From contig CALVSK010000009.1 of assembly GCA_944359015.1 (NCBI GenBank), forward strand, positions 1 to 34,000: 34,000 nt of DNA, given 5' to 3'. Both the position numbers and the translations under genes were made by a program. Positions 13,532 through 30,642 of the stretch are shown here, one piece after another. The notes beneath the pieces were generated by a model. The model worked only from the letters and a program-made list of their open reading frames with translations, was not told where the DNA came from and made no database searches. This stretch comes from an uncultured Bacilli bacterium. Its GTDB lineage: Bacteria > Bacillota_I > Bacilli_A > RF39 > UBA660. How positions within the stretch are numbered: position 1 is the first letter of the stretch; each line of letters starts with the position of its first letter.

Positions 13532-13559
13532 ATTATAAACCACAAAAACATTTAATCAA
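13532..13559 (-). promoter_or_regulatory. Promoter for the MscS gene
   Basis: On the minus strand, TTGATT (13559-13554), a 16-base spacer and a perfect TATAAT (13537-13532). The -35 lies over the last codons of the DedA-family gene. Confidence 0.65.
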
Positions 13560-14136
13560 TTTTAAAGACCTTTTTAGTAATTAAACTAAGTATATATGCA
13601 ATTATAACCATACCAAACACAATAATTAAATTTTTAGGTTGTCTAAAGCTTTCCAATAAACTAGTTCCTATAACACCCCAAAAATACACTAAAAAAATTT
13701 TACTAATAATAATAGACAAAAAAAATTTTTTAAAATTCATATTTACTAATCCAGCAGCAATATTCATCATAAATGCAGGAGTAAAAGGTATTGCTAAAAT
13801 AACTGTTACTTTTGTCAAAGATAAATTTTCTATATAGCACATACATCTTGTAAGTAAATTAATATTTTTTATTTTTTTAATAACAAAATTACGAAAAAAT
13901 TTTTTTACTAAAAAATAAGATATAACACAACCAATTACAGTACAAACCCAAGAAACTATAAACCCTATTACATTACCAAAAGCAATAAAATTCATAGTTA
14001 TAAAAACAAATAAAGGTAACGGCGGAATTATAGATTCTAATACAATAAATAAACAACCTAATAAAGGCCCATAAACTCCTAGGGCATCAATCAAAAACAT
14101 TACAAAATCATAAAATTGATTAAAAAGGTTACTCAT
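13552..14136 (-). CDS. DedA/VTT-domain (SNARE-associated) membrane protein
   Basis: The protein has 194 residues from the ATG at 14136. A TTG nine codons upstream has no ribosome binding site. It shows the DedA opening GVYGPLLGCLFIVLESIIPPLPLFVFI with the conserved E and PP, several hydrophobic spans, and the C-terminal motif FTPAFMMNIAAGLVNMNFKKFF with KIF. DedA proteins are thought to move lipids such as undecaprenyl phosphate or phosphatidylethanolamine across the membrane. It lies downstream of the rhodanese gene and upstream of MscS, on the same strand. Confidence 0.88.
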   Translation of the reverse strand: MSNLFNQFYDFVMFLIDALGVYGPLLGCLFIVLESIIPPLPLFVFITMNFIAFGNVIGFIVSWVCTVIGCVISYFLVKKFFRNFVIKKIKNINLLTRCMCYIENLSLTKVTVILAIPFTPAFMMNIAAGLVNMNFKKFFLSIIISKIFLVYFWGVIGTSLLESFRQPKNLIIVFGMVIIAYILSLITKKVFKID

Positions 14137-14189
14137 AAAATCACTATTTTTATTATAGTACAATTTTTAAAAAAATACTACATTATTAC

Positions 14190-14444
14190 TTATTTTATTA
14201 CTTGAGTTACATCATAACCTAGAAATTCTAGCATAGAAACTACTTTTTGACTTAAAAAACCTTTATTACAAACAATAAAGTATTTATTATTTTTATCCAA
14301 CAAAGATTTATAATTTAATAAAAGTTTATCTGAATATATATTTATACTATTAGGAGTAGGATTATTTATATAATCTTCAGGATGTTGAACATCAATTAAC
14401 ACACCCATATTAACATCATAATCAGTTAATTTTATTCTTTTCAT
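14190..14444 (-). CDS. Rhodanese-like domain protein
   Basis: The protein has 84 residues from the ATG at 14444. The domain reads LIDVQHPEDYINNPTPNSIN, then LLDKNNKYFIVCNKG with the active-site Cys, and ends LGYDV. These are the blocks of a single-domain rhodanese that transfers or carries sulfane sulfur. The loop after Cys is CNKGFLS rather than the usual CxxGxRS, so activity is uncertain. The longer reading to 14492 begins inside the terminator of the T4SS operon and has no ribosome binding site, so I reject it. Confidence 0.75.
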   Translation of the reverse strand: MKRIKLTDYDVNMGVLIDVQHPEDYINNPTPNSINIYSDKLLLNYKSLLDKNNKYFIVCNKGFLSQKVVSMLEFLGYDVTQVIK

Positions 14445-14472
14445 TCTAATCACAATATATCTTATGAAGCAT

Positions 14473-14500
14473 AAAAAAACATAGATAGTCATTTATCTAT
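14473..14500 (-). terminator. Terminator of the type IV secretion operon
   Basis: On the minus strand, ATAGATA and TATCTAT form a perfect 7-bp stem with a 6-base loop, followed by G and seven T. It begins 4 bases after the virD4-like stop codon. Confidence 0.75.
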
Positions 14501-14503
14501 ATT

Positions 14504-16756
14504 TTAATCATCTCCAAAAAAATCATCAAAAAATTCATCATCTGAAATTATATTTTCATCAATAACTTTACTTTCAGAATCAACATTTATTTTAGGAGAT
14601 TCATTTATAATCTTATTTTCAAATTTTTCATTTTGAGATTTTTTTAAATCATCATTATTTAAAAATGATATATCATCAACAAAGTTTTTATTTTCTTGTA
14701 TTTTATTTTCCTGTAATGATGATTTTAAAATATTATCATCAATTTTAAACTTAGGTAAAGTAAAATCATTTGAAATTTTATTTAATCCTTCTTTCCTTTT
14801 AAGTTCATCTTGTCTATCTAATTCTTTAAATTTTTCATCCAAGTCCTTTAACATACTATCAATATCTAAAGAATCAAAACTATTTTTATTACTAAAAGCA
14901 TTATTGTTAAACATACTACTATTTAAAGGATTAGAAGTTAAATTGTTATTTGAAATATTTGGATTAAAAGAACTATTAAAATCCACTGGTTTAAAAGGAT
15001 TTGGGCTAGAAAAAGGATTATTATTCATATTAGCCATTTTTTTAGATTTTTCTTCAGTAACAAATTTCTTTAAATCAAAAATCTCCACTTCTTGTCTATT
15101 TCTAGATGGATAAGGTTCATCTTTCCTTTCTATTCCCCAATTCATCATAAAATCAGGTGTTAACTTAGTTCTAAATGGGTCAGTTCTAAGCCTTTTTATA
15201 ATAGCTTCAAATAATTTCATTTTTTGTAAATCCGTAACAGTTATAAGAGGTCTAGTTGCATTCTTATCTTTTTCATCAGTAACTTTTACTTCACCACACA
15301 TTTTACTAATTTCTTCTAAAGCTTTCATTTCTGTACTAATCAAATAAACCAAATTACCACAGTTACCTTTAATTATTTCAGCAACATTATCACCATATAC
15401 ATCATTTAATTGAGCAAAATTTTGAATAATAAAAGTAAAACGAATATCACGACTTCTCGCGGCTGAAACCATAGCATCCACATCTTTAAGTGGTGGCATA
15501 TTAGCAAACTCATCTAAAATAAAATTAGTTCTAAAAGGTAATTTCCCGCCATTTTCTTGAGCAACATCAATTAATGTTTCATAACATTGTTTAATAAAAA
15601 TAGTCATCAAGCTGTGATAAGTTTTCTTTTCATCGTGAATAATCATAAAAACAGCAGTTTTACCATTACCAATATCTCTCATATCAAAATCACTATATGA
15701 AAGCATTTCACTTAGTGCTTCTCCAGTTGAAAAGTTACGTATTTTTTGCCTAAAAGTTGCAAGCAAACCACCCTTAGTATCATTCGGAGCATTAATTGTA
15801 CTTGTAGCAAAAATATATGGAGTAGACTTTTCGCCTTTTAACCCAAAATATTCTTTAATATAATTGCTAGTAGCATACCTTTCTTCTCCAACAGCACTCA
15901 TATAGTTAATACTATTTAAATTTACTTCCTTTTCTTTGGCATCTTCAAATAAGCCTAAAGCTAATCCTGAAAAATAATCGGCTGCAGACTTTTCCCAGAA
16001 ATCTGATTCTGATTTATTACTGGAATCATACAAAATATTTAAAGCAACGTCATTTAATAGTTCTATTGCTTTATCTTGATTACCATTTCTATAATAATTT
16101 AAAGGTAAAGTCAAAGGATTCCAAGAATTTCCACGTTGTGGTTCTCTAAAGTTTAAAACAATTATTTTATAACCTTTTTCTTTTAAATAAGTGGCACTAT
16201 ATTTATAAATTTCTCCTTTAGGGTCAGTAATTATCATACTTTCACCTTTTTTAGCAAGTAAATTTACCATTGGCTTAACAATTGTTTCAGTTTTACCACT
16301 ACCAGTAGAACCAATAACTAAATTATGATATTCACCATTATCGACCCAAATTTCTTTTCCGTTATTTATAAGAGGTATTCCTGCTGCCTCAACAGTATCC
16401 GTATCTGGTGTAACTCTAACAATTTTACTTTGACTTTTTATTTCTTTTTCTTTTGCCCAAGTAGAATATCCATCATTTGATTTTTCTTTAAAAATTAAAC
16501 CAATTCCACCGCTTTTATCTTTTTTAAAAATATAAGAAGAAACACTTGTAAAAATTATAATTAAAGCAGCCAAAAACAATAACATAGTTACTGGAAAATA
16601 TGCACCAGTAAAAGCTTCAAAAGGCATAAGACCATAAAATGTCCCCTCTTGAGCCAAAGAATGTACATTTAAAACTGCAATACAACATAAATAAAGTAAC
16701 AAACCACAATAAATACAAAATAATAAGAAGTCTTTAGGTTCTACTTTAAATTTCAT
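14504..16756 (-). CDS. VirD4/TraG-type coupling ATPase with long Asn-rich acidic tail
   Basis: Of 750 residues, two N-terminal membrane helices (about 9-30 and 54-76) anchor the protein. The Walker A motif GSTGSGKT lies at 149-156, ITDPKGEIY follows, and the Walker B region is NFILDEFANMPPLKD. These mark the T4SS coupling ATPase that brings substrates to the channel. About 185 residues after the ATPase core have no fold I recognise. They form an Asn/Phe/Ser-rich stretch, then a charged segment (LDEKFKELDRQDELKRK), then an acidic end (DDEFFDDFFGDD). The tail may be a substrate or partner docking site. The gene is the last of the operon. The ATG follows AGGGAGAG. Confidence 0.92.
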   Translation of the reverse strand: MKFKVEPKDFLLFCIYCGLLLYLCCIAVLNVHSLAQEGTFYGLMPFEAFTGAYFPVTMLLFLAALIIIFTSVSSYIFKKDKSGGIGLIFKEKSNDGYSTWAKEKEIKSQSKIVRVTPDTDTVEAAGIPLINNGKEIWVDNGEYHNLVIGSTGSGKTETIVKPMVNLLAKKGESMIITDPKGEIYKYSATYLKEKGYKIIVLNFREPQRGNSWNPLTLPLNYYRNGNQDKAIELLNDVALNILYDSSNKSESDFWEKSAADYFSGLALGLFEDAKEKEVNLNSINYMSAVGEERYATSNYIKEYFGLKGEKSTPYIFATSTINAPNDTKGGLLATFRQKIRNFSTGEALSEMLSYSDFDMRDIGNGKTAVFMIIHDEKKTYHSLMTIFIKQCYETLIDVAQENGGKLPFRTNFILDEFANMPPLKDVDAMVSAARSRDIRFTFIIQNFAQLNDVYGDNVAEIIKGNCGNLVYLISTEMKALEEISKMCGEVKVTDEKDKNATRPLITVTDLQKMKLFEAIIKRLRTDPFRTKLTPDFMMNWGIERKDEPYPSRNRQEVEIFDLKKFVTEEKSKKMANMNNNPFSSPNPFKPVDFNSSFNPNISNNNLTSNPLNSSMFNNNAFSNKNSFDSLDIDSMLKDLDEKFKELDRQDELKRKEGLNKISNDFTLPKFKIDDNILKSSLQENKIQENKNFVDDISFLNNDDLKKSQNEKFENKIINESPKINVDSESKVIDENIISDDEFFDDFFGDD

Positions 16757-16812
16757 ACACTTTCTCTCCCTTTACACCATTATACAATAAAATTATTATA
16801 AATTGTAATATT

Positions 16813-17700
16813 TTAACCAAATAAATAATCTATTTTATAATCCATTGTGTTATATTCATATATTTTAATCTTATTATTATTATTATCTATAATGTTATAT
16901 AAAACAAATTCATCATTATTGTCCTTAGAAAACGAAAATATAACTGAAGACAATTTATTATAAATATTATCTATGTTATTTTCATAATCAGAAATAGAAA
17001 GATAATTGTTTTTGGCATTATCTGTTAACAAACTATAAGCATAATCGACATCAACGTACATCAATAATTTATATTGATTTATATACGTTACTAATTTATT
17101 TTTTTCTGAAATTTCGTTAAATTTTAGGGAAAAATTAGAATTTATCGATAAATTATCTCTAAAAACAAAATTATTTACAAAATCATTAAAATTAGAATCG
17201 GTTAATGGATATATTCTATATGATTTATTACTATTAACAATAATCATATAATTTACATCACCATAATATTTTACTTCTTCATTATAAATATATTGATTAA
17301 GTAAATATCCATTAATAAAATAATACGTTATAGTTTCCCCTTCTAAAAAATAGATTTTTTTTATCAAAAAGGAAACATCTTCATAATTAGAATAAATAAT
17401 GTTTAAAACATTATCAATATTTATACCATTCTTTAAAACAAAATCATCATCTAATACACTTAATAAATCGGTTTTATTTTTATTTGACAACAAATCATAA
17501 TAATCATTAATAGCTTTTTGTAAAGCCCAAAAAACTTCATCATTATTTTTTAATAAAACTAATTCCGAATTAGAAATAATAATATTGCTATTTTCACTTT
17601 CGCTAATATTTTCCTTTTTATTAAACAATATTAACGCCAAAAAAGTTACAACACATAATATTATTATAATTAAGATAACCGCTTTTTTTTTAACATTCAT
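16813..17700 (-). CDS. One-TM extracytoplasmic T4SS protein, possible VirB8/TcpC counterpart
   Basis: The 295 residues begin with a short Lys-rich cytoplasmic end and one membrane helix (AVILIIIILCVVTFLALILF). About 265 outside residues follow, rich in Asn, Tyr and Asp. Two similar halves can be seen: INDYYDLLSNKNKTDLLSVL (about 65) and INQYKLLMYVDVDYAYSLL (about 208). Both look like the opening helix of NTF2-like domains, and two NTF2-like domains after one helix is the layout of TcpC/VirB8. I infer that role from architecture and from operon position between the lysozyme and virD4; sequence identity alone would not show it. The ATG follows AGGTGAT. Confidence 0.55.
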   Translation of the reverse strand: MNVKKKAVILIIIILCVVTFLALILFNKKENISESENSNIIISNSELVLLKNNDEVFWALQKAINDYYDLLSNKNKTDLLSVLDDDFVLKNGINIDNVLNIIYSNYEDVSFLIKKIYFLEGETITYYFINGYLLNQYIYNEEVKYYGDVNYMIIVNSNKSYRIYPLTDSNFNDFVNNFVFRDNLSINSNFSLKFNEISEKNKLVTYINQYKLLMYVDVDYAYSLLTDNAKNNYLSISDYENNIDNIYNKLSSVIFSFSKDNNDEFVLYNIIDNNNNKIKIYEYNTMDYKIDYLFG

Positions 17701-17708
17701 TATATCAC

Positions 17709-19754
17709 CTATCTACAGCCATTATTAACATATTCAATAAATTTATTAACATAATTATTTGCTCTATTTGAACAAGTCGTATTTTTATTTGCTGGCCTTT
17801 CAAAATCTAAGCAAAAATTATTAGCAATATCATAAGCAGAATAATTTCCAGTAACATATTTATTAGTAACAGGATATGATTCATTAAGTTCTTTCACAAA
17901 ATATTCTAATTGAGCTTTTAACGAAGTTGGAGACATTCCATTACTTTTAGCATAACTTATCATATTAACTCTACGTCCAAAACTCCATTGAAATAAACCA
18001 AAACCTGCAGCTTCAGAAGCCGAAACATTATATATATTGTTAATATTATACCCACTACTATACTCAACGGCATCAGTTCTAAAACCGCTTTCAGCATTTA
18101 TATTAACCATAATACCTGCTGTTGCATTTTTAGAAAAACCACTCGCCAAAAGTGCCTGACAAACCGCTTGTTGACCACCTTCATCTCCGGCTGATATATT
18201 AATTTTTTGTGAAATAGGTCTAGGTTCGTCAGGGTTAACATAATCTAAAGGATTTACTTTAGAATCATTTATTCTAATTTCAAAGTGCAAATGACACCCA
18301 GTAGAACTACCACTTGATCCCATTAATCCTATTTTTTCACCTTGACGTACAACAGAACCTTCATTAACTACAATAGATTGATTGAACATATGAGCATAAA
18401 CACTTACCGTTCCATCACCATGATCAATCATAACATAATTACCGTATCCACCGCCACAACTACTTCCATAACTTCCTTCACTTGGGCAACCATCATTAAC
18501 TTTTATAATTGTACCATCTTTTGTAGCAACTATTACATTATCTTCACAAGCTCCAGCAATATCAATTCCATAATGAAATTTATTTTCCCCTTTTATAGTC
18601 CTTGGACCATAATTTGAAGAAATGTAAACAGTTGAGGGATTACCACCATAAATATTCCCACTAGTTGGTGTTAAACTACCAATTGGCCACCAATAAGCAT
18701 CATTTTCAGTAATATTATAAAAAGTACAATAACTTGCCAAATCATATAGTTCATAACTAATACTGTCTTCTTCAGTATTATCATAAGAGTCTATATCACC
18801 ATTAACATTTTCATCATTAAAAATAATATTTAAAATATCTCTATAATCATTATCTAATAATGCTAAGTCTTCCATTTTCGTAATAATAGAATTATTAATA
18901 AACAACGCATCATTACTAGATAACTCGGTAATAGTTGTTGTGTAACTAGATGATAAATATAAATAATTTTCTACTTCTAGATACAATTCAGAAATATCTT
19001 CATACAAAACATTATCATCCTCAGATACAGCTTCAAAACCTACATCACAATCATCTAAATATAAAGTTTTCCCTATATTATCATATTCACCATCACTTAA
19101 AGCATTTGTCTTTAATATTATAAGTAATGCCTTAATAGTTTCATCAGTTAAATCATAATCTTTTATATAAGAATATGTTAAACCAATAACATATTTATCT
19201 AAAGGTAATTCGCTAGTTTCAGTAGTATCACAAGTAGTTAACACTACAACTGCTTCATTATAATTACACTCTGAATCAAAGTATCCAGTTTCTGTAATAT
19301 TAAATTCACCACCAATTATAATAATTATAATAAAAAATATAACCAATATTACAGCAATAATAATTAAAACCCAAGGATTAGCAATTAAAAAGGCCCCTAT
19401 TTTACTAGCAACTTGACCTACAACTTTTTTTATAGCAGTACCTACAGCTTTACTGGCTTGCTTTGTTACCTCTTTTGTTGCTTGTTTAGCAACTTCTTTT
19501 GAAGAATTATTAACATTCTTTTGAAAATTTGAATCATTATCTAAATCGTTTTCGTTAGAAACAGCATTATCCTCATTTTCTAAATTTTCTTCTAAATCTT
19601 GTTCTAATTCATCATTTTCTTCTATAGAATCTAGTTCATTATTTTCTAAATTTTCTTGCATAGAAAAAGCACCTAATCGTTCTAATTTTCTTTGATTAGG
19701 ATCATAAAGTAATTTATTATGATTATTAATATTTACTTCTCTTTTTCTATTCAA
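17709..19754 (-). CDS. Membrane-anchored M23 endopeptidase plus phage-type lysozyme of the T4SS (VirB1 role)
   Basis: The 681 residues fall in order as follows. About 120 cytoplasmic residues come first, very acidic and then with a Lys/Ala repeat (KEVAKQATKEVTKQASKAV). One membrane helix follows (about 123-148). An outside region begins LPLDKYVIGLTYSYIKD, faintly like SpoIID/LytB. The M23 metallopeptidase covers about 380-505 (H394, D398, H455, H488 and H490 in CHLHFEI). The last 160 residues are a phage-tail-type lysozyme with E555 in NINAESGF and GFGLFQW. It should cut both peptide and glycan bonds so the channel can cross the wall. The start is TTG at 19754, fixed by AAGGTGG five bases upstream. 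Confidence 0.9.
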   Translation of the reverse strand: MNRKREVNINNHNKLLYDPNQRKLERLGAFSMQENLENNELDSIEENDELEQDLEENLENEDNAVSNENDLDNDSNFQKNVNNSSKEVAKQATKEVTKQASKAVGTAIKKVVGQVASKIGAFLIANPWVLIIIAVILVIFFIIIIIIGGEFNITETGYFDSECNYNEAVVVLTTCDTTETSELPLDKYVIGLTYSYIKDYDLTDETIKALLIILKTNALSDGEYDNIGKTLYLDDCDVGFEAVSEDDNVLYEDISELYLEVENYLYLSSSYTTTITELSSNDALFINNSIITKMEDLALLDNDYRDILNIIFNDENVNGDIDSYDNTEEDSISYELYDLASYCTFYNITENDAYWWPIGSLTPTSGNIYGGNPSTVYISSNYGPRTIKGENKFHYGIDIAGACEDNVIVATKDGTIIKVNDGCPSEGSYGSSCGGGYGNYVMIDHGDGTVSVYAHMFNQSIVVNEGSVVRQGEKIGLMGSSGSSTGCHLHFEIRINDSKVNPLDYVNPDEPRPISQKINISAGDEGGQQAVCQALLASGFSKNATAGIMVNINAESGFRTDAVEYSSGYNINNIYNVSASEAAGFGLFQWSFGRRVNMISYAKSNGMSPTSLKAQLEYFVKELNESYPVTNKYVTGNYSAYDIANNFCLDFERPANKNTTCSNRANNYVNKFIEYVNNGCR

Positions 19755-19767
19755 CTAAACCACCTTA

Positions 19768-21552
19768 CTAAAAACCTCCACCAGAACCAAAAGAATCTAA
19801 CTCTTCTTGAGTAACAACTATTTGGATTCTCATACGTTTATTGCCACAAACAAACAAAGCATCACCTTGATTATAATATTTAATTTGTTCTTTTTCTGCT
19901 TCATTTAAATCAATTAATTTTGCCAAATCTTCTACTGCTTGCTTCCTTAAGCCCATTACTAAATAGTAAGAAGCATTATCAAATATAGCTTTACCATGAG
20001 TTATTATATTTGGTGCGGTAAAATCGGTTGGCTGTTGTGTTATTATAATGGTACCCGTATTATATTTTCTACTTCTTCTTTGTATTTGTGCTAAAAATTC
20101 AGCACCTAATTCATTATGTCCAGATAATAAAACATGTGCTTCATCAACCATCATTACTGTATTAACATCTTTATCCAAACATAAGCCCCATGCATATTTC
20201 AAAATATTAAAGAACAAAGCATTTTTAATATTTTCATCACTATTCATTAATTCTTTAATATTAAATACTATAAAATCGCTTTCTATAGACAAAGTAGTGT
20301 GTCCAGTAAAATAATATCTTAATTCTTGAATTAAAGGTCTTATTTTTAATTCAAGTCTTTCCAATACATCTCTTTCATGAGTAGCATCTGTCATTGATAA
20401 AAGTCTACCCTTTATCGTAGCATATACATCATCAAATGTTGGAAAATCCTGACTTGTTAATTTAGTAAAATCCGTATTATAATCAATTTTATAACGTTTA
20501 TAAGTATCTTGTAAAACTTCACTAAACATAGTTAAAACATCATCTTCTATACTAGGAGAATAATATTTCATAAAAGCTTTAACTTGTTGTAAAGTTCTAG
20601 TTAAAACAGTATATCCTAGTCCCTGAGCAATTTCTTCTTCATCGGCATCAATAACAATTTCAAGTGGATTAATCATTCCAAATTCTCCACCTTTTCCTAA
20701 ATCAATAAAATCTCCACCGAAAGAATAAACCATTTCACCTAATTCACCTTCTGGATCAACACAAACAATTTTAAAACCATTTCTAATATGTGAACGTAAC
20801 AAAATCTTTGCTGCAGTAGATTTCCCACTTCCTGACATACCAAGTAGTATTAAATTTGCATTATTTCTATTATTTTCTTTTTGTATTTGATATAAAAATT
20901 GATTAAATAGTATAACTCCACCTGAAATATCAACACCAAGCAAAGTAGAATCTCCAGGATCTTTGATACTATCAAATATAAAAGGATACATAGCTGCAAT
21001 AGTTACTGAAGGAATTGGTGTACCAATTCTTTGTTCAATATCTTGTGGTGGAAATATAGGTAAAATAGACTTTAAAGCCTTTTCTTGTTCAAACATCAAA
21101 GCCACTGCTCTCATACCTAAAGCATCCAAATAACTACGTACTTGAATTTTTTTCAATTCTAACTCTTCTTTATTATTAGCAGTAATCATCAAATGCATTT
21201 GAAAATCAAAAATTCTAGCTTGTGTTGCTGCAAGCATTTGAATAAATTGTTCTAAAGACTCATAATCTTGTCTAATTCTTTCTTGCATTGTTTGATCTTT
21301 TTCACTTTGATATCTTACTTTTAAATCTGCAATTTCTTTATTTAACATTTTTTGTAATACAGAAAACTCAATAGGTATATGTTTTATAGCAATTTTTACC
21401 CCATTGATATTAGTCATATCTGATAAAAATCCAGGTGGTATATTTTTAGGAAAAGCTATTACAGTTAAGATTGTTGAATATTTTCCGCCAAGTACAAATT
21501 CTGTTGGTTTAAACTCCATTCCCTTTGGAGCAATTTCGCTTTTTAATTTCAT
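19768..21552 (-). CDS. VirB4-like T4SS ATPase, C-terminal (catalytic) gene
   Basis: The 594-residue protein holds the middle and ATPase parts of VirB4. A coiled region (about 60-110) is followed by Walker A GMSGSGKST (238-246), VDPEGELGEM, Walker B VMMVDEAHVLLSG, and the sensor-like IITQQPTDF. VirB4 ATPases power assembly and transfer. The usual N-terminal VirB4 domain is not here; it is encoded by the preceding gene, whose stop overlaps this ATG as TAATG. GGTGAT lies just upstream, so this start is real and coupled. Together the two genes make 778 residues, the normal VirB4 length. Confidence 0.93.
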   Translation of the reverse strand: MKLKSEIAPKGMEFKPTEFVLGGKYSTILTVIAFPKNIPPGFLSDMTNINGVKIAIKHIPIEFSVLQKMLNKEIADLKVRYQSEKDQTMQERIRQDYESLEQFIQMLAATQARIFDFQMHLMITANNKEELELKKIQVRSYLDALGMRAVALMFEQEKALKSILPIFPPQDIEQRIGTPIPSVTIAAMYPFIFDSIKDPGDSTLLGVDISGGVILFNQFLYQIQKENNRNNANLILLGMSGSGKSTAAKILLRSHIRNGFKIVCVDPEGELGEMVYSFGGDFIDLGKGGEFGMINPLEIVIDADEEEIAQGLGYTVLTRTLQQVKAFMKYYSPSIEDDVLTMFSEVLQDTYKRYKIDYNTDFTKLTSQDFPTFDDVYATIKGRLLSMTDATHERDVLERLELKIRPLIQELRYYFTGHTTLSIESDFIVFNIKELMNSDENIKNALFFNILKYAWGLCLDKDVNTVMMVDEAHVLLSGHNELGAEFLAQIQRRSRKYNTGTIIITQQPTDFTAPNIITHGKAIFDNASYYLVMGLRKQAVEDLAKLIDLNEAEKEQIKYYNQGDALFVCGNKRMRIQIVVTQEELDSFGSGGGF

Positions 21553-22106
21553 TATATCACCGCCCCAAAATTAGTTTGTTCTCCACCATTTAAAAAGTTA
21601 TCCAATAATACTCGCAAATCATTATTAGACGCTTGAGTCGATTGCAATCCAGCATTAGCAAGCCCACTAATTAAATTATGTAATTTCTTTTGAACCAACT
21701 CTAATCTTTTTTCTTTAAAAATAATATAGTATTCAGTATCAACAACATTATATTCAACACTAGTAAATAAATTAGCTTTATTAATATCTTGCATAATTAA
21801 TTTTTTTATTGCATTACTAGTAGCATTATTATACATTAACTGTAAACGAGAAACATAAACATCAATATCTACTGGTCTATCAGCGATTAAAAGCCAAAAT
21901 TCATAATCAATACTATTATAAAAATTTCTTAAATTATAAATCATGTTATTTTGACTACCTACATCCATAATGAAAATATTTTTTGGACTAATTTTTACAC
22001 CAGTAACATAAAAACCATCTTCAAGTTGTATCATTCCGTTCATTATTTGTTTAATTGGTAACCAATCTTCAGAATAATTTAAACTATTATTTATCGTTTG
22101 TTTCAT
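21552..22106 (-). CDS. VirB4 N-terminal domain encoded as a separate gene
   Basis: The 184-residue protein opens with NYSEDWLPIKQIMNGMIQLEDGFYVTGVKISP, the pattern found at the N-terminus of single-chain VirB4/TraE proteins of Gram-positive conjugation systems. Hydrophobic strand motifs follow (YEFWLLIADRPVDIDVYV and TEYYIIFKEKR). There is no membrane helix, Walker motif or signal peptide. It overlaps the PrgI gene by 20 bases and the VirB4 ATPase gene by one base (TAATG). The reading frame is clean to its stop, which suggests a true gene split, although a recent nonsense or frameshift break cannot be excluded from one sequence. Confidence 0.75.
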   Translation of the reverse strand: MKQTINNSLNYSEDWLPIKQIMNGMIQLEDGFYVTGVKISPKNIFIMDVGSQNNMIYNLRNFYNSIDYEFWLLIADRPVDIDVYVSRLQLMYNNATSNAIKKLIMQDINKANLFTSVEYNVVDTEYYIIFKEKRLELVQKKLHNLISGLANAGLQSTQASNNDLRVLLDNFLNGGEQTNFGAVI

Positions 22107-22401
22107 ATTTCACACACCAACCCTTCCAATAATACCTTCTTGGATTACTTATATAAGTTAAAACATTTATTATAAATTGTAAAACATTATGATAATAAAG
22201 AACTGGAGTAACTAAAAAGCCTGTGATTAAAGCCGGCAACAAAATTATTATCATCTCCAGCATATTGGCATTTTTCACTAACATTAATAATAAAATTGTT
22301 AAACTACATCCAGTACCAAACAATATTAAATCTAAAGGTGTAAAAAAACCTAATATTAATTGTGATTTTTTCGAATTTGCTGGTATTAAATAATTATTCA
22401 T
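22087..22401 (-). CDS. PrgI-family T4SS inner-membrane protein
   Basis: The 104-residue protein has the PrgI layout. A short N-terminus (NNYLIPANSKKSQLILGFFTPLDLI) leads into two close membrane helices (about 25-42 and 46-70), and a basic end follows with NVLTYISNPRRYYWKGW. PrgI proteins take the VirB3 place and bind VirB4 at the membrane. That fits its position between VirB6 and the VirB4 genes. It overlaps the next gene by 20 bases. The ATG at 22401 follows GGGGA. Confidence 0.82.
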   Translation of the reverse strand: MNNYLIPANSKKSQLILGFFTPLDLILFGTGCSLTILLLMLVKNANMLEMIIILLPALITGFLVTPVLYYHNVLQFIINVLTYISNPRRYYWKGWCVKYETNDK

Positions 22402-22418
22402 TCCCCATTATCCTTTCA

Positions 22419-24515
22419 TTAACTATTATTTTTTTTACTTGCATCATCATTTTGCTTTAAAACAGAAATGTTTATATCATTTTTATTAGTTGTTAACTTA
22501 ATATTATCCTTCATTTTAGAAACTACAGAAATATTATCACCATTTGCATCTTTCTTATAAAAGACTTGTTCATTAATTCCTTTATCCATAGAAAAATCTG
22601 TACCAACAACACCTGCATCTTGCAAGGCTTTTAAAGCAGCATTATTTCTAATTGCCCCAACATAATTAACAGCCTTAACCCTTAAAGTGCCTAAATCAAG
22701 TTGATCAGATTCACTCAAAGCATTAAATGCCTTATTGGAAGCATAAACTTTTCCATGCAATGCTTTTTGTGCTGCTTTAATTGCATCTTTATAGGCTTTT
22801 TCTGCACCAGCTACATTTGCACCAGAGAGCCTAGCTTGATCCAGCTTTTCCTTTGCTAACTTAAATGCACCTAAGTTTTCGCCAGCTAAAGTATTTTCTC
22901 CTTTATTTAGTTTTTTTAATAAAACTTGTTCAAATTCATTATTAAAAGCATCTTCCGCATCTGTAATCTCTGCCATTGCAGCATTTTCTGCTTTTAATGC
23001 ATCAATATTTCCAAAACCTACAAAGCGTCCTGCTCCGCTTACTGCATCAGCAATATGACCACCAGCAGCCCCCAAAATTCCACCAAATACAGGAACTTTT
23101 ACTCTATGTGCAGCTTTGTAATTTTCACGTTTTGTTTTAGCCATAGTAGCACCTGCTACTCCTTTACTTGTTGCATCTTTCATTTCCTTAAAACTTTTAG
23201 CATTTCTAGCACCATATCCAGCTCTTACCATACCAGACCCAGCGCCAGCCAGCGTTGAAGGAACTACCGACAATGCACCCCTTCCAATTTTTTTAAAGGC
23301 TTGCATATAATTTTTATTTTTAAAATCCTTCGCAATACCTTTTCCAGCAAAAGCACCAACTGCATTTCTTAAACCTGTAGTTGCTAGCCCTCCAACGGCT
23401 GCTCCAGCTACTAAACCTCCACCCATAGCAAGTTTATCCATAAGACCAAGTTTCATTCCACCAGTATCAAGATTTAAAATATCACCGATTAATTTAGGTG
23501 CTTGTCTCATAAATGCCACAACGCCCATAATAAGCAAACCTATAACAATACACTCTTTATCAAAGCTTAAAGCATTTAAAACAGGAATTTTATCTTTTTT
23601 ATCAACAATTAAGGTAATCATAAAAATCCCTAAAAATATAACCGCTATCCGAATAAAAACTTCGGCAAATATGCTAACAACTTGTTTTACCCACTTTGAA
23701 AATACATCTTTCATTTTCCCACCTGGTAAAATTCTACAAACAACGGGTATCGGAGCAATTATTTGATAAAACGCTAATTTAACAACTCTTATTCCCATAT
23801 CAAAACAAAAATTTAAAAGAACATAAGCCACAAAAATACCGGCAACAGTAGAAATTAAAACCATATACGTTATTTGACCCGCCTCTACTGCTTCACCATA
23901 TTGAGCAAATTGTCTAAAACTAGCCCCGTTTTTTTCCACATCATTTTTTACAGTTTTTAAATCTGGCCCATTTTGTACAAAAAACCAACCATTACCAGCT
24001 ATATTATCAGCACACTCTTCACTATCTATATCGTACGAATTTTGTACAGTACACCATTCTTCATCCTCATGAAAAAAAGCATAAAATACATTATATGATA
24101 TTTCTCTACCTGCATCACCAGAAACTTTCGATTCATAATCTTCTCCCAAAATCAATTTAGGAATAACATTATTATTCAAAAAAGTATTTTGAACATTAAA
24201 AGCTACACTAAAAATTACAGGTAAAACTATAATTATAACTAAAGACATAACAACATTTTTAGCTAAATTACTAAAAGAACTTTCTCCCTTTGAAAAAGAT
24301 TCAGGATCAATAACTGCCCTTAACAAAGAGTAAGTTAAAACAAACAACATAATTAATCCTAAAACTACATAAATTCGCCCAACTATAAAATTATAATCTT
24401 CAGAACTAAAAACATTAATTCCAGCTAAAGTGTAAAAGATATCATAAAGATAATCAATAAGATTATAAACAATGGAATCTAAAAATAACATTATATTAAA
24501 AAAACTTGCTACCAT
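22419..24515 (-). CDS. VirB6/TrbL-like polytopic channel protein with Ala/Lys-rich cytoplasmic tail
   Basis: From the ATG at 24515 (AGGTG six bases upstream) the protein has about 698 residues; a GTG three codons earlier has no spaced ribosome binding site. The first ~355 residues contain about seven membrane helices with an extracytoplasmic loop carrying Cys residues (ECADNIAGNGWFF). From about 355 on, the protein is soluble. A Gly/Ala-rich start (GGGLVAGAAVGGLATTGL) leads into a long Ala/Lys/Glu helical stretch (FKLAKEKLDQARLSG). The layout matches VirB6/TrbL, which forms the inner-membrane channel. It begins 10 bases after the VirB2-like stop. Confidence 0.85.
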   Translation of the reverse strand: MVASFFNIMLFLDSIVYNLIDYLYDIFYTLAGINVFSSEDYNFIVGRIYVVLGLIMLFVLTYSLLRAVIDPESFSKGESSFSNLAKNVVMSLVIIIVLPVIFSVAFNVQNTFLNNNVIPKLILGEDYESKVSGDAGREISYNVFYAFFHEDEEWCTVQNSYDIDSEECADNIAGNGWFFVQNGPDLKTVKNDVEKNGASFRQFAQYGEAVEAGQITYMVLISTVAGIFVAYVLLNFCFDMGIRVVKLAFYQIIAPIPVVCRILPGGKMKDVFSKWVKQVVSIFAEVFIRIAVIFLGIFMITLIVDKKDKIPVLNALSFDKECIVIGLLIMGVVAFMRQAPKLIGDILNLDTGGMKLGLMDKLAMGGGLVAGAAVGGLATTGLRNAVGAFAGKGIAKDFKNKNYMQAFKKIGRGALSVVPSTLAGAGSGMVRAGYGARNAKSFKEMKDATSKGVAGATMAKTKRENYKAAHRVKVPVFGGILGAAGGHIADAVSGAGRFVGFGNIDALKAENAAMAEITDAEDAFNNEFEQVLLKKLNKGENTLAGENLGAFKLAKEKLDQARLSGANVAGAEKAYKDAIKAAQKALHGKVYASNKAFNALSESDQLDLGTLRVKAVNYVGAIRNNAALKALQDAGVVGTDFSMDKGINEQVFYKKDANGDNISVVSKMKDNIKLTTNKNDINISVLKQNDDASKKNNS

Positions 24516-24524
24516 CTTACACAC

Positions 24525-24959
24525 CTAACCAATTCCACAAGTACCATAAGCACCAAACCAATTCATAATAAAATTAACCAATATTGGCAAGAAAAACAAT
24601 ATTGCTACAAATATAAAACGTTTACCAGCAGTAACGCCAGCCTTTTTTAAAGCATCTTTATCATTTGAAGCTAATGCCTTTACAAAATCTAAAGTACTTA
24701 AAACTAACAAAGCAGCAATAGCAACATATTTCATAACATTTAATGTCCATTGCATCCAATAAGCAGGACAATCAATATCTTTAGGGCTTCCAAAAATAGC
24801 TTGGCATTCACCATCACCAGAGCCACATACACCATCACTTGCATCAGCTAAATAAACACCAACATTATCAAATGAAGCGGCATTAACAAAAGAAATACTA
24901 GAAAAAAAAGTGAAAGAAATAATATAACCCAAAACTATTATTTTACAAAAATTAGTCAT
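24525..24959 (-). CDS. VirB2/pilin-like T4SS protein
   Basis: The 144-residue protein has a signal peptide with a likely cut after SFVNA. A short outside stretch with paired Cys (GVCGSGDGEC) follows, then two membrane helices (about 72-90 and 112-132) joined by a charged loop (ASNDKDALKKAG). The end is NWFGAYGTCGIG. Small, exported, two-helix proteins at the head of a T4SS operon correspond to VirB2/TrbC subunits, or to their Gram-positive equivalents that may not form long pili. It is the first gene after the operon promoter. The start ATG is close to GGATGTGATA. Confidence 0.78.
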   Translation of the reverse strand: MTNFCKIIVLGYIISFTFFSSISFVNAASFDNVGVYLADASDGVCGSGDGECQAIFGSPKDIDCPAYWMQWTLNVMKYVAIAALLVLSTLDFVKALASNDKDALKKAGVTAGKRFIFVAILFFLPILVNFIMNWFGAYGTCGIG

Positions 24960-24998
24960 ATTATCACATCCTATCTTCCAATATTTTCACACACAATA

Positions 24999-25027
24999 AT
25001 TATAACAAAGGCAAAAAGAGAAATCAA
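24999..25027 (-). promoter_or_regulatory. Promoter of the type IV secretion operon
   Basis: On the minus strand, TTGATT (25027-25022), a 17-base spacer and a perfect TATAAT (25004-24999), 40 bases before the first gene. No other equally good promoter was seen inside the eight-gene operon. Confidence 0.75.
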
Positions 25028-25110: not shown

Positions 25111-25184
25111 TGGCAGGGGCGGAGAGAATCGAACTCCCATCAAAAGTTTTGGAGACTCCTATGCTACCATTATACCACGCCCCT
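25111..25184 (-). tRNA. tRNA-Trp (anticodon CCA), CCA end encoded
   Basis: The minus strand shows a perfect 7-bp acceptor stem (AGGGGCG with CGCCCCT), anticodon loop CTCCAAA with U33 before CCA, T-arm GGGAG/CTCTC with TTCGATT, discriminator G and an encoded CCA. The D-stem is weak by simple pairing. The anticodon reads UGG only, which agrees with TGA serving as a stop in this window. Confidence 0.92.
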
Positions 25185-26465: not shown

Positions 26466-27390
26466 ATGGTAACAATAGTTTTTGACCAATTGATAAGACA
26501 GTTGTAGAAAGATTATTTAAATTTGTTATTGCATTAACTGTAGTACCAAATTCTTTAGCAATAGAATATAATGTATCTCCCTTTTTTACAGTATAAACAA
26601 TACTTTCACTAGTAGAAGGTATTTTTAATACCTGACCAATTGACAAAATATCAGAAGTTAAACCATTTATTTGTTTTAAATCACTTACGGATGTGTTATA
26701 TTGTTTTGCTATAGAATATAAAGTATCTCCACTTTTAACAATATAAGAATTATTTGAATCTTCCATATTATTAGCAGGTATCTTTAAAATCTGTCCGATT
26801 GATAATGAATCTGTTGTTAAATTGTTAATAGATTTTAAATTATCAACACTTGTATTAAATTTATTTGCTAATGTATATAAAGTATCTCCCTTTTTTACTG
26901 TATAAGTTGTTTCGTTAACATCCATAGTGGGAATAATTAGGTTTTGCCCAACACTTAATAAATTACTTGATAAATTATTTATTTGTTTTAATTCATCAAC
27001 AGTAATCCCATATTTTTTAGATATACTCCATAAAGTATCCCCACTTTTAACTGTATAATATTTAGAATCCATAGGTGCAACATATACACCACCAGCATAT
27101 TCAACTATAGCCTTCGTCACTGCTTCGGCCAAATTCTCCCAATTATTTTTTATTTGATTAACATCATCACCTGTTGAATCTGCAAATCCATATTCAACAA
27201 TAATTGATTCATTATTAGGAGTATCACGTAGTATATAATAATAATCTTTAGCAGGATTACTAGGAAGTCTTCGTTGATAATATTTTCGAACATTTTGACC
27301 AGCTACTTCAAATTCCTTAGCAATTTTTGAAGATAACACATCGTTATTACGTAACGAATAAATTATTTCAGCACCATCCCCACCACAAGA
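26464..27390 (-). pseudogene. N-acetylmuramoyl-L-alanine amidase, C-terminal fragment with four LysM repeats
   Basis: The frame is open from 27390 (TAA at 27393-27391). It starts in the middle of an Amidase_3 domain: GGDGAEIIYSLRNNDVLSSK, then AGQNVRKYYQRRLP and SIIVEYGFADS with the last catalytic Glu. Four LysM repeats follow, each of the form YTVKSGDTLYSIAK...LSIGQ-LKIP. The domain's first half, with the metal-binding HxG and Glu and the HAN motif, is absent: upstream sequence is unrelated and another gene ends 27 bases away. A GTG at 27339 could make a 291-residue product, but it would lack most of the catalytic site. Interruption by the adjacent recombinase element is the likely cause. 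LysM repeats bind GlcNAc in peptidoglycan. Confidence 0.85.
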
Positions 27391-27417
27391 TTAGCTCGTT
27401 CATCATATATTTAAATT
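27382..27417. other. Probable element-chromosome junction (attL or attR)
   Basis: Amidase homology is recognisable on the minus strand up to codons GGT-GGG-GAT (27384-27376) and stops there. From 27391 to the stop of the next gene at 27418 the sequence no longer fits an amidase in any frame. Serine recombinases cross over at a 2-bp core with little flanking identity, so the exact point cannot be set without the other junction. Confidence 0.5.
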
Positions 27418-27993
27418 TTATTTTTGTTTAATGTTTGAAGTAGCTATAGTATAAGCTAAATAAACCATAATAATTTGATATAAAATTATATTTACTACAA
27501 TATTAACAATTGTAGGTATTTTAAAACCAAAATATCCAAATAAGCAACCTAGTCCTATACATAATATACCACTAAAAAGATTTGTCCAAGTTCTTTTATT
27601 TTTAATTTTGTCTTTAGTAAACGGAAGGATTAATCCTACTAGGATAAATATCCATGCTGCTGAAAAAAATTTTATTGCTTTATTTTTAAAAGATGTTTCA
27701 TTTACAAAAATATTATTTAAATAATTATTTTCTTTTTCTGATATTTCTTCAATTATAGAATTATATTCTTTTTTTAGCTTATCATTTTTATTAATTTTAT
27801 TTTCGTCAATTTTACTAACATTTTCTAAAATGTCTATTCTATTGGAAACTCTCTTATAATACAAAAAATTTGCATCAATAATTGGATATAATACTACCAA
27901 TAATAATATTGCTATTATAAATATCCAAGCTATCTTTTTATAATTTTTACTATACTTTAAAATGTTTAAAAATATGTCCTTCACATCTATCAC
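27418..27993 (-). CDS. Unknown membrane protein with four predicted helices and a central coiled segment
   Basis: I do not recognise this 191-residue protein. It has one helix near 19-38 (IAWIFIIAILLLVVLYPII), then about 65 charged residues likely to be coiled (IDENKINKNDKLKKEYNSII and EISEKENNYL). Three closely spaced helices follow near 112-128, 138-156 and 160-184. It has no enzyme motif. It lies between the recombinase and the broken amidase, so it is probably cargo of the element. A long-helical, multi-span protein of this size could be a superinfection-exclusion or toxin-type factor, but nothing in the sequence shows this. Confidence 0.6.
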   Translation of the reverse strand: MIDVKDIFLNILKYSKNYKKIAWIFIIAILLLVVLYPIIDANFLYYKRVSNRIDILENVSKIDENKINKNDKLKKEYNSIIEEISEKENNYLNNIFVNETSFKNKAIKFFSAAWIFILVGLILPFTKDKIKNKRTWTNLFSGILCIGLGCLFGYFGFKIPTIVNIVVNIILYQIIMVYLAYTIATSNIKQK

Positions 27994-28026
27994 CTACTTG
28001 ACCTACTATTATACCGTTTAATGCCC

Positions 28027-28068
28027 AAAAAATAAAGACCTCACCATATGAATAAATAGTGAAGTCTT
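28027..28068 (-). terminator. Terminator of the serine recombinase gene
   Basis: A 10-bp stem with one mismatch (28035-28044 with 28059-28068) and a 14-base loop is followed on the minus strand by TATTTTTT. The stem overlaps the recombinase stop codon. Confidence 0.7.
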
Positions 28069-29722
28069 AATTATTTATCTTACCCTTTCTCCCATAAGGA
28101 TTACGAATTGGATTTAAATTTTGATATTCAAACGTACAATCTGGTATCACACCATATTTATATTTAATTGTTATAATTCTATTTTTATCTATCACTATTT
28201 TATCTACTAATGTATGTATTAATTCTTTTTTAGGCTTATTTAAATCCAATAGCTTTTTTATTTTTTTAGTATAATCAGGTAATTCTTTTAATTTATTTTT
28301 TATTTCATATTCTCTTATCTTATCATTGTTAATGCTTTCATTAATTTGGTGTAACTTTTCTTCAAAGGGTTTTGCTAATTCCATATAAGTATCAGCATTA
28401 ATAATGCCATTATATTTATCTTCATATAAAGAAGTTAATCTACTTGTTATCTGTTCTTTTTCACTCATTAAAGAACTTATATTTTTATTTATATCTTTAG
28501 TTTGCTTTCGTACTTCACTAGCAACTTTCTTATTTAATTCTTCTATATTTAAATTTTCAATTTTTATCTTTATATTTGATTTTATTTTTTCTACTATTTG
28601 ATCTTCTAAATAATTATAAGGAAAGAAGTGTGGCTCACATCTTTTTCTTAATGGATCTCTAGAGTATCTATTGCAATTAACACTCCAGTAATCTAAATTT
28701 TTTCTATATAAAACACTTAATCTGTTACCACACTCTTTACAAAATAGAAGTCCTTCTAAATCCCTAATTATTCTTCTGTTTTTAGGTCTAACATCCTTTT
28801 TATTTTGTTTTATTAGACTAGAAATATATTCAAATGTTTCTTTATCAACTAATGGTTCATGAGTATTTTCTACTATCATCCACATACTTTGGTCTAGTGT
28901 GATTTTTTTCTTAGATTTATAATTAACTTTAGTTTGAGTATGTTGAACCATATCTCCAGTATATATTCTATTACTTAATATCTTTTTTACAGAAGAAATG
29001 TTCCATGTATCTCTTACTATTAGTCTAGTAGAATAATTTGTTTTTTTGTATCCACTAGGTGTTGGATATCCTTTTTCGTTTAGCATAGTAACTATTCTAG
29101 ATGGACCAATACCATTTTTTCTCCATTCAAATATTTGTTTAACAATAGGAGCAGTTTCTGGATTTGGTATTAAATGTCCCTTATCTTCAGGATCTCTCAT
29201 ATATCCAAAACATGGTAAACTTCCTACAAATTTACCACTTTTTCTTTTTTCATTTAATACATTTCTAATTTTAATAGAATTTTGTTTACTATAATAATCA
29301 TTACATGCAATTATAAATGTTGAAGAATCATTACTAGCTTGATTTTTAAAACTATCGTATGATTCCAATATAGATATAAACCTTACGTTCTTTTCAGGAA
29401 AATATGTTTCCATATAATACCCTGTCTTAATATGATCTCTACCTAATCTTGATAAATCTTTTACTATTACACAATTAATCTTTTTTTCTTCTATATCTTC
29501 AATTAATTTTTGAAAACCAGGTCTTTCAAAATCAGTGCCAGAATATCCATCATCAACATATTCTCCTATTAAGTTAAAATTATTATTTTTAACATAATTA
29601 GTTAATAATTCTCTTTGATTAATTACACTTTCACTATCAGATTCATATTTTTTATCTTTATCTTCTTGAGATAATCTTATATAGATTCCTACATTGAAAT
29701 CTATTCCCGATTTATTATACAC
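28067..29722 (-). CDS. Large serine recombinase (integrase)
   Basis: The 551-residue protein has the N-terminal resolvase domain with the nucleophile Ser in YIRLSQED and the Arg residues in DLSRLGRDHIKTG. The Recombinase domain follows (IFEWRKNGIGPSRIVTMLNE and NPETAPIVKQ). A zinc ribbon comes next (LFCKECGNRLS, then SVNCNR and RKRCEPH), and a coiled-coil (about 410-470) leads to the C-terminus. This is the layout of integrases that insert phages, ICEs or excise elements such as skin. The start is GTG at 29722, with GGAGG four to five bases upstream. The start lies inside a 7-bp inverted repeat. The gene points at the broken amidase about 700 bp away, as expected of an integrase near its attachment site. 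Confidence 0.95.
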   Translation of the reverse strand: MYNKSGIDFNVGIYIRLSQEDKDKKYESDSESVINQRELLTNYVKNNNFNLIGEYVDDGYSGTDFERPGFQKLIEDIEEKKINCVIVKDLSRLGRDHIKTGYYMETYFPEKNVRFISILESYDSFKNQASNDSSTFIIACNDYYSKQNSIKIRNVLNEKRKSGKFVGSLPCFGYMRDPEDKGHLIPNPETAPIVKQIFEWRKNGIGPSRIVTMLNEKGYPTPSGYKKTNYSTRLIVRDTWNISSVKKILSNRIYTGDMVQHTQTKVNYKSKKKITLDQSMWMIVENTHEPLVDKETFEYISSLIKQNKKDVRPKNRRIIRDLEGLLFCKECGNRLSVLYRKNLDYWSVNCNRYSRDPLRKRCEPHFFPYNYLEDQIVEKIKSNIKIKIENLNIEELNKKVASEVRKQTKDINKNISSLMSEKEQITSRLTSLYEDKYNGIINADTYMELAKPFEEKLHQINESINNDKIREYEIKNKLKELPDYTKKIKKLLDLNKPKKELIHTLVDKIVIDKNRIITIKYKYGVIPDCTFEYQNLNPIRNPYGRKGKINN

Positions 29723-29745
29723 TTTTACCTCCTTCTTTTAATCGG
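29705..29745 (-). promoter_or_regulatory. Inverted repeat around the recombinase ribosome binding site and GTG start
   Basis: CCCGATT (29705-29711) and AATCGGG (29739-29745) are complementary. The loop of 27 bases contains the GGAGG and GTG of the recombinase. It may allow repression by a DNA-binding protein or by mRNA folding. Confidence 0.45.
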
Positions 29746-29794
29746 GTATTAAGACTCATCCATGATAGCATCATAAAACGAAATATGCAAATCA

Positions 29795-29896
29795 TTAATT
29801 AGATAATTCTCCTTTTGTTTCTTTTATAATCTCTTCAATAAGATATTTTAAAATAAGATCTTTAAATGAAATATTATTCAAATAGGCTCCTTCCAT
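29795..29896 (-). CDS. Mini-ORF of 33 residues before the recombinase
   Basis: The ATG at 29896 opens a short frame (MEGAYLNNISFKDLILKYL and on), acidic and Lys-rich at its end, likely one amphipathic helix. AGGTGG lies about 7 bases upstream and inside the preceding mini-ORF. Short helical proteins before a recombinase may be directionality or control factors. I cannot assign this one. Confidence 0.45.
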   Translation of the reverse strand: MEGAYLNNISFKDLILKYLIEEIIKETKGELSN

Positions 29897-29954
29897 ATTT
29901 AAACCACCTATTTAAATTTATGTTTAAATTATTCATTATTGATATTTTTTTCAT
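29874..29954 (-). CDS. Mini-ORF of 26 residues overlapping the next mini-ORF
   Basis: The ATG at 29954 is preceded by AAAGGAGTG at good distance and encodes MKKISIMNNLNINLNRWFK plus seven residues. It overlaps the start of the 33-residue mini-ORF by 23 bases in another frame, so its translation would pass through the next ribosome binding site. It looks like a leader peptide that couples or controls translation downstream. Confidence 0.4.
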   Translation of the reverse strand: MKKISIMNNLNINLNRWFKYGRSLFE

Positions 29955-30150
29955 ACTTATATCCACTCCTTTCCTTAATTAATTTTGATTAAGTATGTTA
30001 ATATTTAAAACTTATTTAAATATTTTAAATTTATATAATTAAATTTTTTATATTATATTTATTATATTATTGTAGACACAGAGTACCATTGAAAAAGAAA
30101 AACATGTACATTGAATTAAATAACATTGTCTAAAGTTATGATATTTTTGG
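29955..30150. other. AT-rich non-coding leader between the HTH gene and the mini-ORFs
   Basis: This stretch is nearly all A and T, with several TATAAT-like boxes on the minus strand (30030-30075) but no convincing -35 to pair with them. It probably contains the promoter for the mini-ORFs and recombinase. I see no further structure. Confidence 0.4.
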
Positions 30151-30414
30151 CTATTTAATAATATATATTTTTCTTTGAAATTTATGTTTAAACTCCATTT
30201 TAATATAACCTACGTCAGATAATTCTTTTAATAATCTTGAAATAGTTCTATTACTTGTATTTAACTTTTCAGCTAAATAATCATTTCCAGCAAAACAATA
30301 TCCTTCTTGTTGTACTAGTATTATTAATAAGCTAAATAAAACTTTAGAACTAGGTTTAAGATTTTTATCTGTTATTACTGCTAATGGTACTTTTATATAT
30401 TGTTCATAATCCAT
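30151..30414 (-). CDS. Small helix-turn-helix (HTH_36-like) DNA-binding protein
   Basis: The 87-residue protein begins YIKVPLAVITDKNLKPSSKV, the opening seen in N-terminal domains of Bacillota replication initiators and phage replication proteins. A winged helix-turn-helix follows (GNDYLAEKLNTSNRTISRLLKELSDVGYI). The catalytic or oligomerisation part of an initiator is absent, so it is either a stand-alone regulator or a truncated initiator. GGAGG lies 8 bases before the ATG. It lies directly downstream of the repeat-rich non-coding region, which may hold its binding sites. Confidence 0.75.
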   Translation of the reverse strand: MDYEQYIKVPLAVITDKNLKPSSKVLFSLLIILVQQEGYCFAGNDYLAEKLNTSNRTISRLLKELSDVGYIKMEFKHKFQRKIYIIK

Positions 30415-30488
30415 TTATAATACCTCCTTTCTAACTAGGATGACTTTTCCTTCAAAAATATCAAATTATAAATTAGGAGCATAAGAAG

Positions 30489-30543
30489 ATGGCACCATAA
30501 ACTAAAAAATTCCTTATAAGCTAAGGAAATTTAATGGTGCCAT
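30489..30543. repeat. Nested inverted repeat (10-bp outer arms)
   Basis: ATGGCACCAT (30489-30498) and ATGGTGCCAT (30534-30543) are perfect complements in inverted orientation. They enclose a second 7-bp hairpin TTCCTTA/TAAGGAA (30510-30528). Outer and inner stems can form together. Confidence 0.8.
30504..30528 (-). terminator. Terminator-like hairpin inside the nested repeat, upstream of the HTH gene
   Basis: On the minus strand TTCCTTA-GCTTA-TAAGGAA is followed directly by six T. Lying about 90 bases before the HTH gene, it could act as an attenuator if the promoter is further upstream. Confidence 0.5.
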
Positions 30544-30547
30544 TCTT

Positions 30548-30565
30548 ATTTCGTACTTACGAAAT
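30548..30565. repeat. 8-bp perfect inverted repeat with 2-bp centre
   Basis: ATTTCGTA-CT-TACGAAAT is a near-continuous palindrome of operator type. Confidence 0.75.
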
Positions 30566-30620
30566 TAATCCTACTATATAGGTTGATATTAAGGATCATC
30601 AATAGTTTTATTCTTATTTT

Positions 30621-30641: not shown

Positions 30642-30642
30642 A

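Follow-up and report, generated by a model that had tools for sequence, protein, structure and literature searches.

An eight-gene type IV secretion operon

The window analysed here is an entire 34-kb contig (C9; CALVSK010000009.1), one of the 56 contigs of a 0.98-Mb metagenome-assembled genome (MAG) from an uncultured member of the order RF39, class Bacilli. It contains an operon of eight minus-strand genes, all co-oriented, for the parts of a type IV secretion system (T4SS). The original prediction, made from the letters of this DNA, had assigned pilin, VirB6, PrgI/VirB3, VirB4, VirB1-like wall hydrolase, VirB8-like and VirD4 functions to these genes, and all were confirmed at 14504-24959.

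The first gene (24525-24959) encodes a putative VirB2-like pilin of 144 residues with a signal peptide and two hydrophobic segments by hydropathy, and with two cysteines (Cys52 and Cys141) that are conserved in the family alignment. The window copy itself falls short of a match to the T4SS_pilin family (PF18895), and its assignment is based on homologues, 21/41 of which match that family (best E-value 1.9e-6). Next lies a 701-residue VirB6-like membrane protein (22419-24524) with hydrophobic segments within its first 350 residues and a long hydrophilic C-terminal extension. It matches the NCBIfam MMCAP2_0566 family (1.3e-11) and the Mbov_0396 transmembrane protein of integrative and conjugative elements (ICEs; 4.9e-8), both below the curated cut-off, and a fold search with its AlphaFold model (predicted local distance difference test, pLDDT, 72.6) gave no significant match. 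The small PrgI/TcpE/VirB3-like membrane protein that follows (22087-22401, 104 residues) has a match to TcpE (PF12648, 9.6e-5) below cut-off and additionally matches the N-terminus of mycoplasma-type VirB4; its gene is kept in place across nearly all loci.

VirB4 is split over two genes. The TrsD-like N-terminal part (21552-22106, 184 residues) aligns with positions 98-276 of NCBIfam NF045975 (VirB4_plasma, 2.9e-13), and the C-terminal part (19768-21552, 594 residues) is an ATPase with an intact Walker A motif that matches PF19044 (1.2e-11), PF12846 and the VirB4-like structures PDB 4AG5/4AG6 (E-value 6e-56). A VirB1-like wall hydrolase of 681 residues (17709-19754) combines a transmembrane helix with an M23 peptidase (PF01551, 1.8e-26) and a phage-tail lysozyme domain (PF18013, 5.8e-30). 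The VirB8/TcpC-like protein (16813-17700, 295 residues) is predicted to have one transmembrane helix and two NTF2-like domains, an assignment that draws on an AlphaFold2 model (mean pLDDT 87.5) in which the helix is joined to two alpha/beta domains, and on Foldseek matches that are mainly to NTF2-like folds, the best with an E-value of 2.4e-3 and none below 0.001. Finally, the VirD4 coupling ATPase (14504-16756, 750 residues) matches PF02534 (3.7e-54) and, above cut-off, the NCBIfam CD1115-family VirD4, and it has a conserved C-terminal tail (..ISDDEFFDDFFGDD). One operon thus holds a VirB4-family ATPase together with VirD4, VirB3/PrgI, VirB6, VirB8 and VirB1-type parts, the composition of a monoderm (MPF_FATA-like) T4SS.

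Conservation and vertical inheritance

VirB4 is present in 220 of the 241 genomes of the order, most of which have one copy of this VirB4 subtype at about 70-95% identity. Within the sampled family it occurs in 27/29 congeners and 15/18 other genera, and other families of the class yield distant VirB4 matches at most. All VirB4 matches in a plasmid search were below 60% identity (~29% at best), and the subtype was on none of the plasmids searched.

The history of the system was compared with that of canonical Rel, encoded on contig C39. VirB4 distances follow those of Rel across 36 genomes (Spearman 0.88; 0.71 within the genus; Mantel p 0.001), and the two trees have 16 of 33 splits in common, against 0.12 by label shuffling. 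The RelA-like protein of the window was rejected as a clock gene, as it is a second, fast-evolving paralogue. This RelA/SpoT-like protein (4819-6291, 490 residues) accompanies canonical Rel in many genomes of the lineage.

The neighbourhood is also stable. Across the genus the same genes recur downstream (rhodanese, VTT, mscS, adh and pepM29) and upstream (sleB, cmpB and lysM), and neither a relaxase relative nor a tRNA attachment (att) repeat adjoins the operon, which is the fixed-site pattern that had been put forward as a sign of domestication. Order-wide conservation with no linked relaxase, and a phylogeny congruent with a housekeeping marker, bear this suggestion out. Comparative sequence evidence therefore indicates that the T4SS operon is a vertically inherited core system and not a mobile element.

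Its parts have changed at different rates. VirB4C, VirB4N, PrgI and VirD4 are 79-93% identical to their counterparts in close relatives (VirB4C 93%, VirD4 81%) and the flanking mscS and adh 75-76%; the pilin, VirB6, the VirB8-like protein and the hydrolase are just 31-57% identical. VirB4C, with a third-to-second codon position ratio of 11.9, is under the strongest purifying selection of the operon. Judged from these comparisons, the pattern is one of a motor that has been maintained and outer parts that change fast.

Some loci are arranged differently. In one subgroup (L060, L065, L066 and L070) virB6 is inverted relative to pilin-prgI-virB4, which suggests rearrangement around a variable pilin array. 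In two genomes (L061 and L102) prgI-virB4N-virB4C stands alone in another neighbourhood, next to collagen-like repeat proteins and one additional conserved gene, with no virB6, pilin or virD4 near it.

Relaxases, recombinases and the question of mobility

No relative of the MobL or MOBV relaxases of the lineage was found at any of 80 core T4SS loci. The relatives also carry ICE-type T4SSs, which serve as an internal control: their VirB4 is ~34% identical and they adjoin MobL relaxases. Sporadic presence of the operon on ICEs in relatives, named beforehand as an outcome that would refute domestication, was not seen.

The window contains no relaxase, as predicted. A search of the whole genome for five relaxase families (MOBP, MOBQ, MOBT, MobL and Mob_Pre, the last being MOBV) gave no match to the first four but two Mob_Pre genes on contigs C1 and C5 (loci L156 and L157), so that the absence of relaxases holds locally and not genome-wide. 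Each of the two genes lies beside a large serine recombinase, and the two loci are probably elements that can be mobilised, perhaps through the core T4SS.

The claim that recombination genes are found on neither side of the operon did not hold: a gene for a large serine recombinase (28067-29722) lies ~3.1 kb away. It belongs, however, to a separate element (27390-34000), which also encodes a helix-turn-helix protein and a PLD/ResIII helicase-nuclease. The element starts near 27390, where its insertion, at a fixed point between NAG and GGDGAE of the protein, breaks up an amidase-LysM gene. The insertion point is the same in L039 and L041, whose recombinases are 49% and 97% identical, respectively, and the amidase is intact in L032, L033 and L035, relatives with the same T4SS. 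The recombinase was therefore rejected as the integrase of the operon, since its element has its own site in the amidase gene and the T4SS lies outside it.

An att site at tRNA-Trp (25111-25184, minus strand), the gene upstream of the operon, was likewise rejected. The window has a single copy of the 3' end of this tRNA gene, no tRNA direct repeat flanks the operon, and tRNA-Trp adjoins the operon in only 8/54 loci scanned. In sum, the features of an ICE are missing: there is no cognate relaxase near the T4SS and no bounding integrase or att sites, and the distribution is not sporadic.

Linkage to a Tad pilus

The operon had been described as self-contained, but it derives from an ancestral Tad-T4SS cluster, of which it is only the T4SS half. 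Elsewhere in the family, other genera have it as the downstream half of a single co-oriented cluster that begins with a Tad (type IVc pilus) operon, and in many relatives cpaB-cpaF-tadB-tadC-flp-flp-tadE-tadE-cpaE runs directly into pilin-virB6-prgI-virB4. Where both genes are on one contig, cpaF lies upstream of virB4 on the same strand and within 16 kb in 47 of 53 genomes (median 10 kb). The cluster is split in the genus of the window, and the Tad half of this genome is on contig C19.

CpaF was identified by matches to PF00437 (2e-28), TIGR02788 (VirB11, 2.9e-33) and TIGR03819 (TadA, 9.5e-30), and CpaB by its SAF domain; TadB, TadC, CpaE and the Tad pilins were named by gene order, size and membrane pattern and not by family matches. 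CpaF is present in 199 of the 241 genomes of the order. It accompanies VirB4 in 191/220 genomes and occurs in 8/21 genomes without VirB4 (odds ratio 10.7, p 1.8e-6, uncorrected for kinship or MAG gaps). On C19 the Tad operon is adjoined by genes for a 1141-residue surface protein with no Pfam match and for a DUF5411 protein (7431-7838 of locus L143, E-value 3e-56), which is possibly a pilus component. The association of Tad and T4SS extends beyond the order, since in a genome from another family (L144) cpaF and genes resembling tadB and tadC precede VirB6-, PrgI- and VirB4-like genes, ~30% identical.

Operon boundaries and neighbouring genes

A promoter and a terminator had been proposed to bound the operon. 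The candidate promoter (24999-25027, minus strand; TTGATT-17-TATAAT with an extended TG -10) is well placed between tRNA-Trp and the pilin gene, but its score does not rise above chance, as this A+T-rich DNA has 99 matches of the kind against 87 ± 8 expected. The candidate intrinsic terminator after virD4 (14473-14500, minus strand) is plausible, being an A/U-rich hairpin with a U run (fold z -2.8), and its position is conserved: a U run lies 3' of virD4 in 20 of 24 relatives in which virD4 precedes the rhodanese gene.

The conserved 3' neighbours (13552-14492, minus strand) encode a rhodanese-like protein, whose likely start is near 14444, and a VTT-domain membrane protein. The pair probably forms a transcript separate from that of the T4SS operon; both genes follow virD4 in most relatives despite the terminator in between. 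On the other side, tRNA-Trp was confirmed as the flanking gene, and it is the upstream neighbour in close relatives.

A proposed contact-dependent translocator and its alternatives

In a lineage where the T4SS is inherited with the chromosome, what is its role? The reading we favour, and consider probable though far from assured, is that a monoderm T4SS was taken over by the ancestor of the order and is now an inherited core system that is paired with a Tad pilus and acts as a contact-dependent translocator. It builds on gene content, domestication, the lack of a local relaxase, the linkage and co-occurrence with Tad, the conserved engine and the VirD4 tail; from these we infer the functional coupling of pilus and T4SS, the dependence on contact and the type of substrate. 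The Tad half, with a CpaF/TadA motor of the VirB11 superfamily, a TadB/C platform, Flp-like and TadE-like pilins, CpaE and CpaB, would make an attachment pilus, to which the large surface protein encoded next to the Tad operon may contribute. This pilus would draw another cell close. The VirB4-PrgI-VirB6-VirB8-like channel and the VirB2-like pilins could then form an envelope-spanning conduit, for which the M23/lysozyme hydrolase would open the wall, and VirD4 would deliver substrates to the conduit through its acidic-aromatic C-terminal tail.

Several observations weigh against this reading. No CpaF is seen in 29 of the 220 VirB4-bearing genomes; given these gaps, and the separation of the two halves in the genus of the window, the T4SS may be able to do without Tad, or their linkage may be no more than a trace of ancestry. 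Four of the 19 supported VirB4 splits conflict with supported Rel splits, and some exchange of the T4SS between lineages is possible. The two MOBV relaxases could use the T4SS, and the MAG of the window gave no match to ComEC, so that the T4SS might have a part in DNA import. Finally, the evidence is comparative throughout, and the MAGs are incomplete and fragmented.

As no relaxase is linked to the operon, the native substrate is most likely a protein or another macromolecule useful to the host, and not the DNA of the element itself. The best lead to it would seem, from sequence conservation, to be the VirD4 tail (consensus DDEFFDDFFGDD), which lies behind a hypervariable linker and is found in all 38 of 38 full-length orthologues. 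A bolder form of the translocator proposal is a tentative one: Tad and T4SS would be a single chimeric apparatus for delivery from cell to cell, with CpaF, of the VirB11 superfamily, driving both the pilus and the channel, and all of this order of uncultured, auxotrophic gut bacteria would use it for living on or manipulating neighbouring cells, in parallel to epibiotic Patescibacteria.

Clearly less likely than the favoured translocator is a chromosomal conjugation machine that works in trans, an alternative already raised in the original prediction. The core T4SS and its VirD4 would recognise the MOBV relaxases of integrated mobilisable elements, or chromosomal sites like an origin of transfer (oriT), and move DNA from cell to cell, and a gain such as recombination would keep the machine in the lineage. 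The two MOBV genes beside serine recombinases on C1 and C5 are in keeping with such a machine, as are the wide retention of VirD4 with intact Walker motifs and the precedents for chromosomal transfer by machines of this kind (PMC12857230). It accounts poorly for strong selection across the order when the genome has no MobL, MOBP, MOBQ or MOBT, and for the 80 core loci with no linked relaxase; moreover, the conserved VirD4 tail is missing from the VirD4s of relaxase-bearing ICEs.

It is unlikely that the T4SS is a macromolecule importer, which would take DNA or nutrients from neighbours to feed an auxotrophic, reduced genome. Such a role would suit the small genome, and RF39 is described as highly auxotrophic (PMC6784871). 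Import of DNA or macromolecules has been proposed for Patescibacteria whose gene set is similar (PMC12102498), and their pilins share a Pfam family with the VirB2-like pilins described here. However, the export receptor VirD4 is conserved in these loci, whereas the ComB importer of Helicobacter pylori, a T4SS, has no VirD4 (PMC12857230), and 26 of the 28 congeners scanned have the usual channel for uptake, ComEC, so that uptake needs no T4SS; DNA uptake is less likely for both reasons. That the operon is the remnant of an ICE, in decay or captured of late, and simply common in gut Bacilli is very hard to credit. In favour of this are its gene families, which are those of conjugative elements, and the serine recombinase 3 kb off. 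Against it, the operon is order-wide and mostly single-copy, with congruent phylogeny, intact motifs, strong purifying selection and no flanking tRNA direct repeat, and the recombinase element sits at a site of its own, in the amidase gene that other relatives carry intact alongside the same T4SS.

Comparison with known systems

No paper on this system in RF39-type Bacilli was found in the literature, in a search that left subscription journals largely outside. By gene set, the closest known counterpart appears to be the relaxase-less T4SS of Patescibacteria/Saccharibacteria, which comprises VirB4, TrsD, PrgI, VirB6 and VirB2-like pilins, with no relaxase in most, in reduced genomes (PMC12102498). 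The same set is found here, chromosomal and relaxase-free. Both lineages have reduced genomes (those of RF39 are reported as reduced and auxotrophic; PMC6784871) and a lineage-wide chromosomal T4SS with a separate TrsD-like gene, PrgI/VirB3, VirB6 and VirB2-like pilins of the T4SS_pilin family, often arrayed. Cells of Patescibacteria use type IV pili too, and cannot grow as epibionts without these pili and the T4SS (PMC12857230). The systems differ in that virD4 is rarely near virB4 in Patescibacteria, whereas here virD4 and the M23/lysozyme hydrolase are inside the operon, and in that the present system belongs to the class Bacilli and is, in many genera, contiguous with a Tad operon. With VirB2-like pilins and a T4SS that has no relaxase now seen in another lineage than Patescibacteria, the question of what such systems transport can be tested by comparing the two. 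Members of the order are often found in guts, have small genomes and have received little study; if nearly all of them inherit a contact machine under strong selection, this would suggest a way of life that depends on other cells.

The closest named families for VirB6, VirB4N/PrgI and VirD4 are those of the ICE modules of Mycoplasma and Spiroplasma (Mbov_0396/0397) and the clostridial CD1115-type VirD4. Those elements are mobile, whereas here VirB4 is split from the PrgI and TrsD parts, pilins are added, inheritance is vertical and no relaxase is linked. Pairing of a pilus with a T4SS is known elsewhere: IncI R64 and PAPI-1 likewise have a type IV-family pilus beside T4SS ATPases, which aids contact, but they are mobile and Gram-negative (PMC12857230), and plasmids of Cutibacterium acnes have a tad locus near VirB4/TcpC-like genes (PMC5696575), again mobile and with its function there unproven. 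Unlike in these three cases, the pilus-T4SS pair described here is a core chromosomal locus.

With its VirB1, VirB3, VirB4, VirB6, VirB8 and VirD4-type parts the system resembles Gram-positive T4SSs of the MPF_FATA class. These have been reviewed as being without VirB11 and, Patescibacteria excepted, without VirB2 (PMC12857230), although another review, of Bacillus plasmids, lists a VirB11-like ATPase for pAW63 (PMC9673590). Here, in contrast to Gram-positive T4SSs in general, the T4SS goes with both a VirB11-superfamily ATPase (the Tad CpaF) and VirB2-like pilins, and the joined Tad-T4SS locus suggests how monoderm systems, said to possess neither a VirB11 motor nor a pilus, can be equipped with the two.

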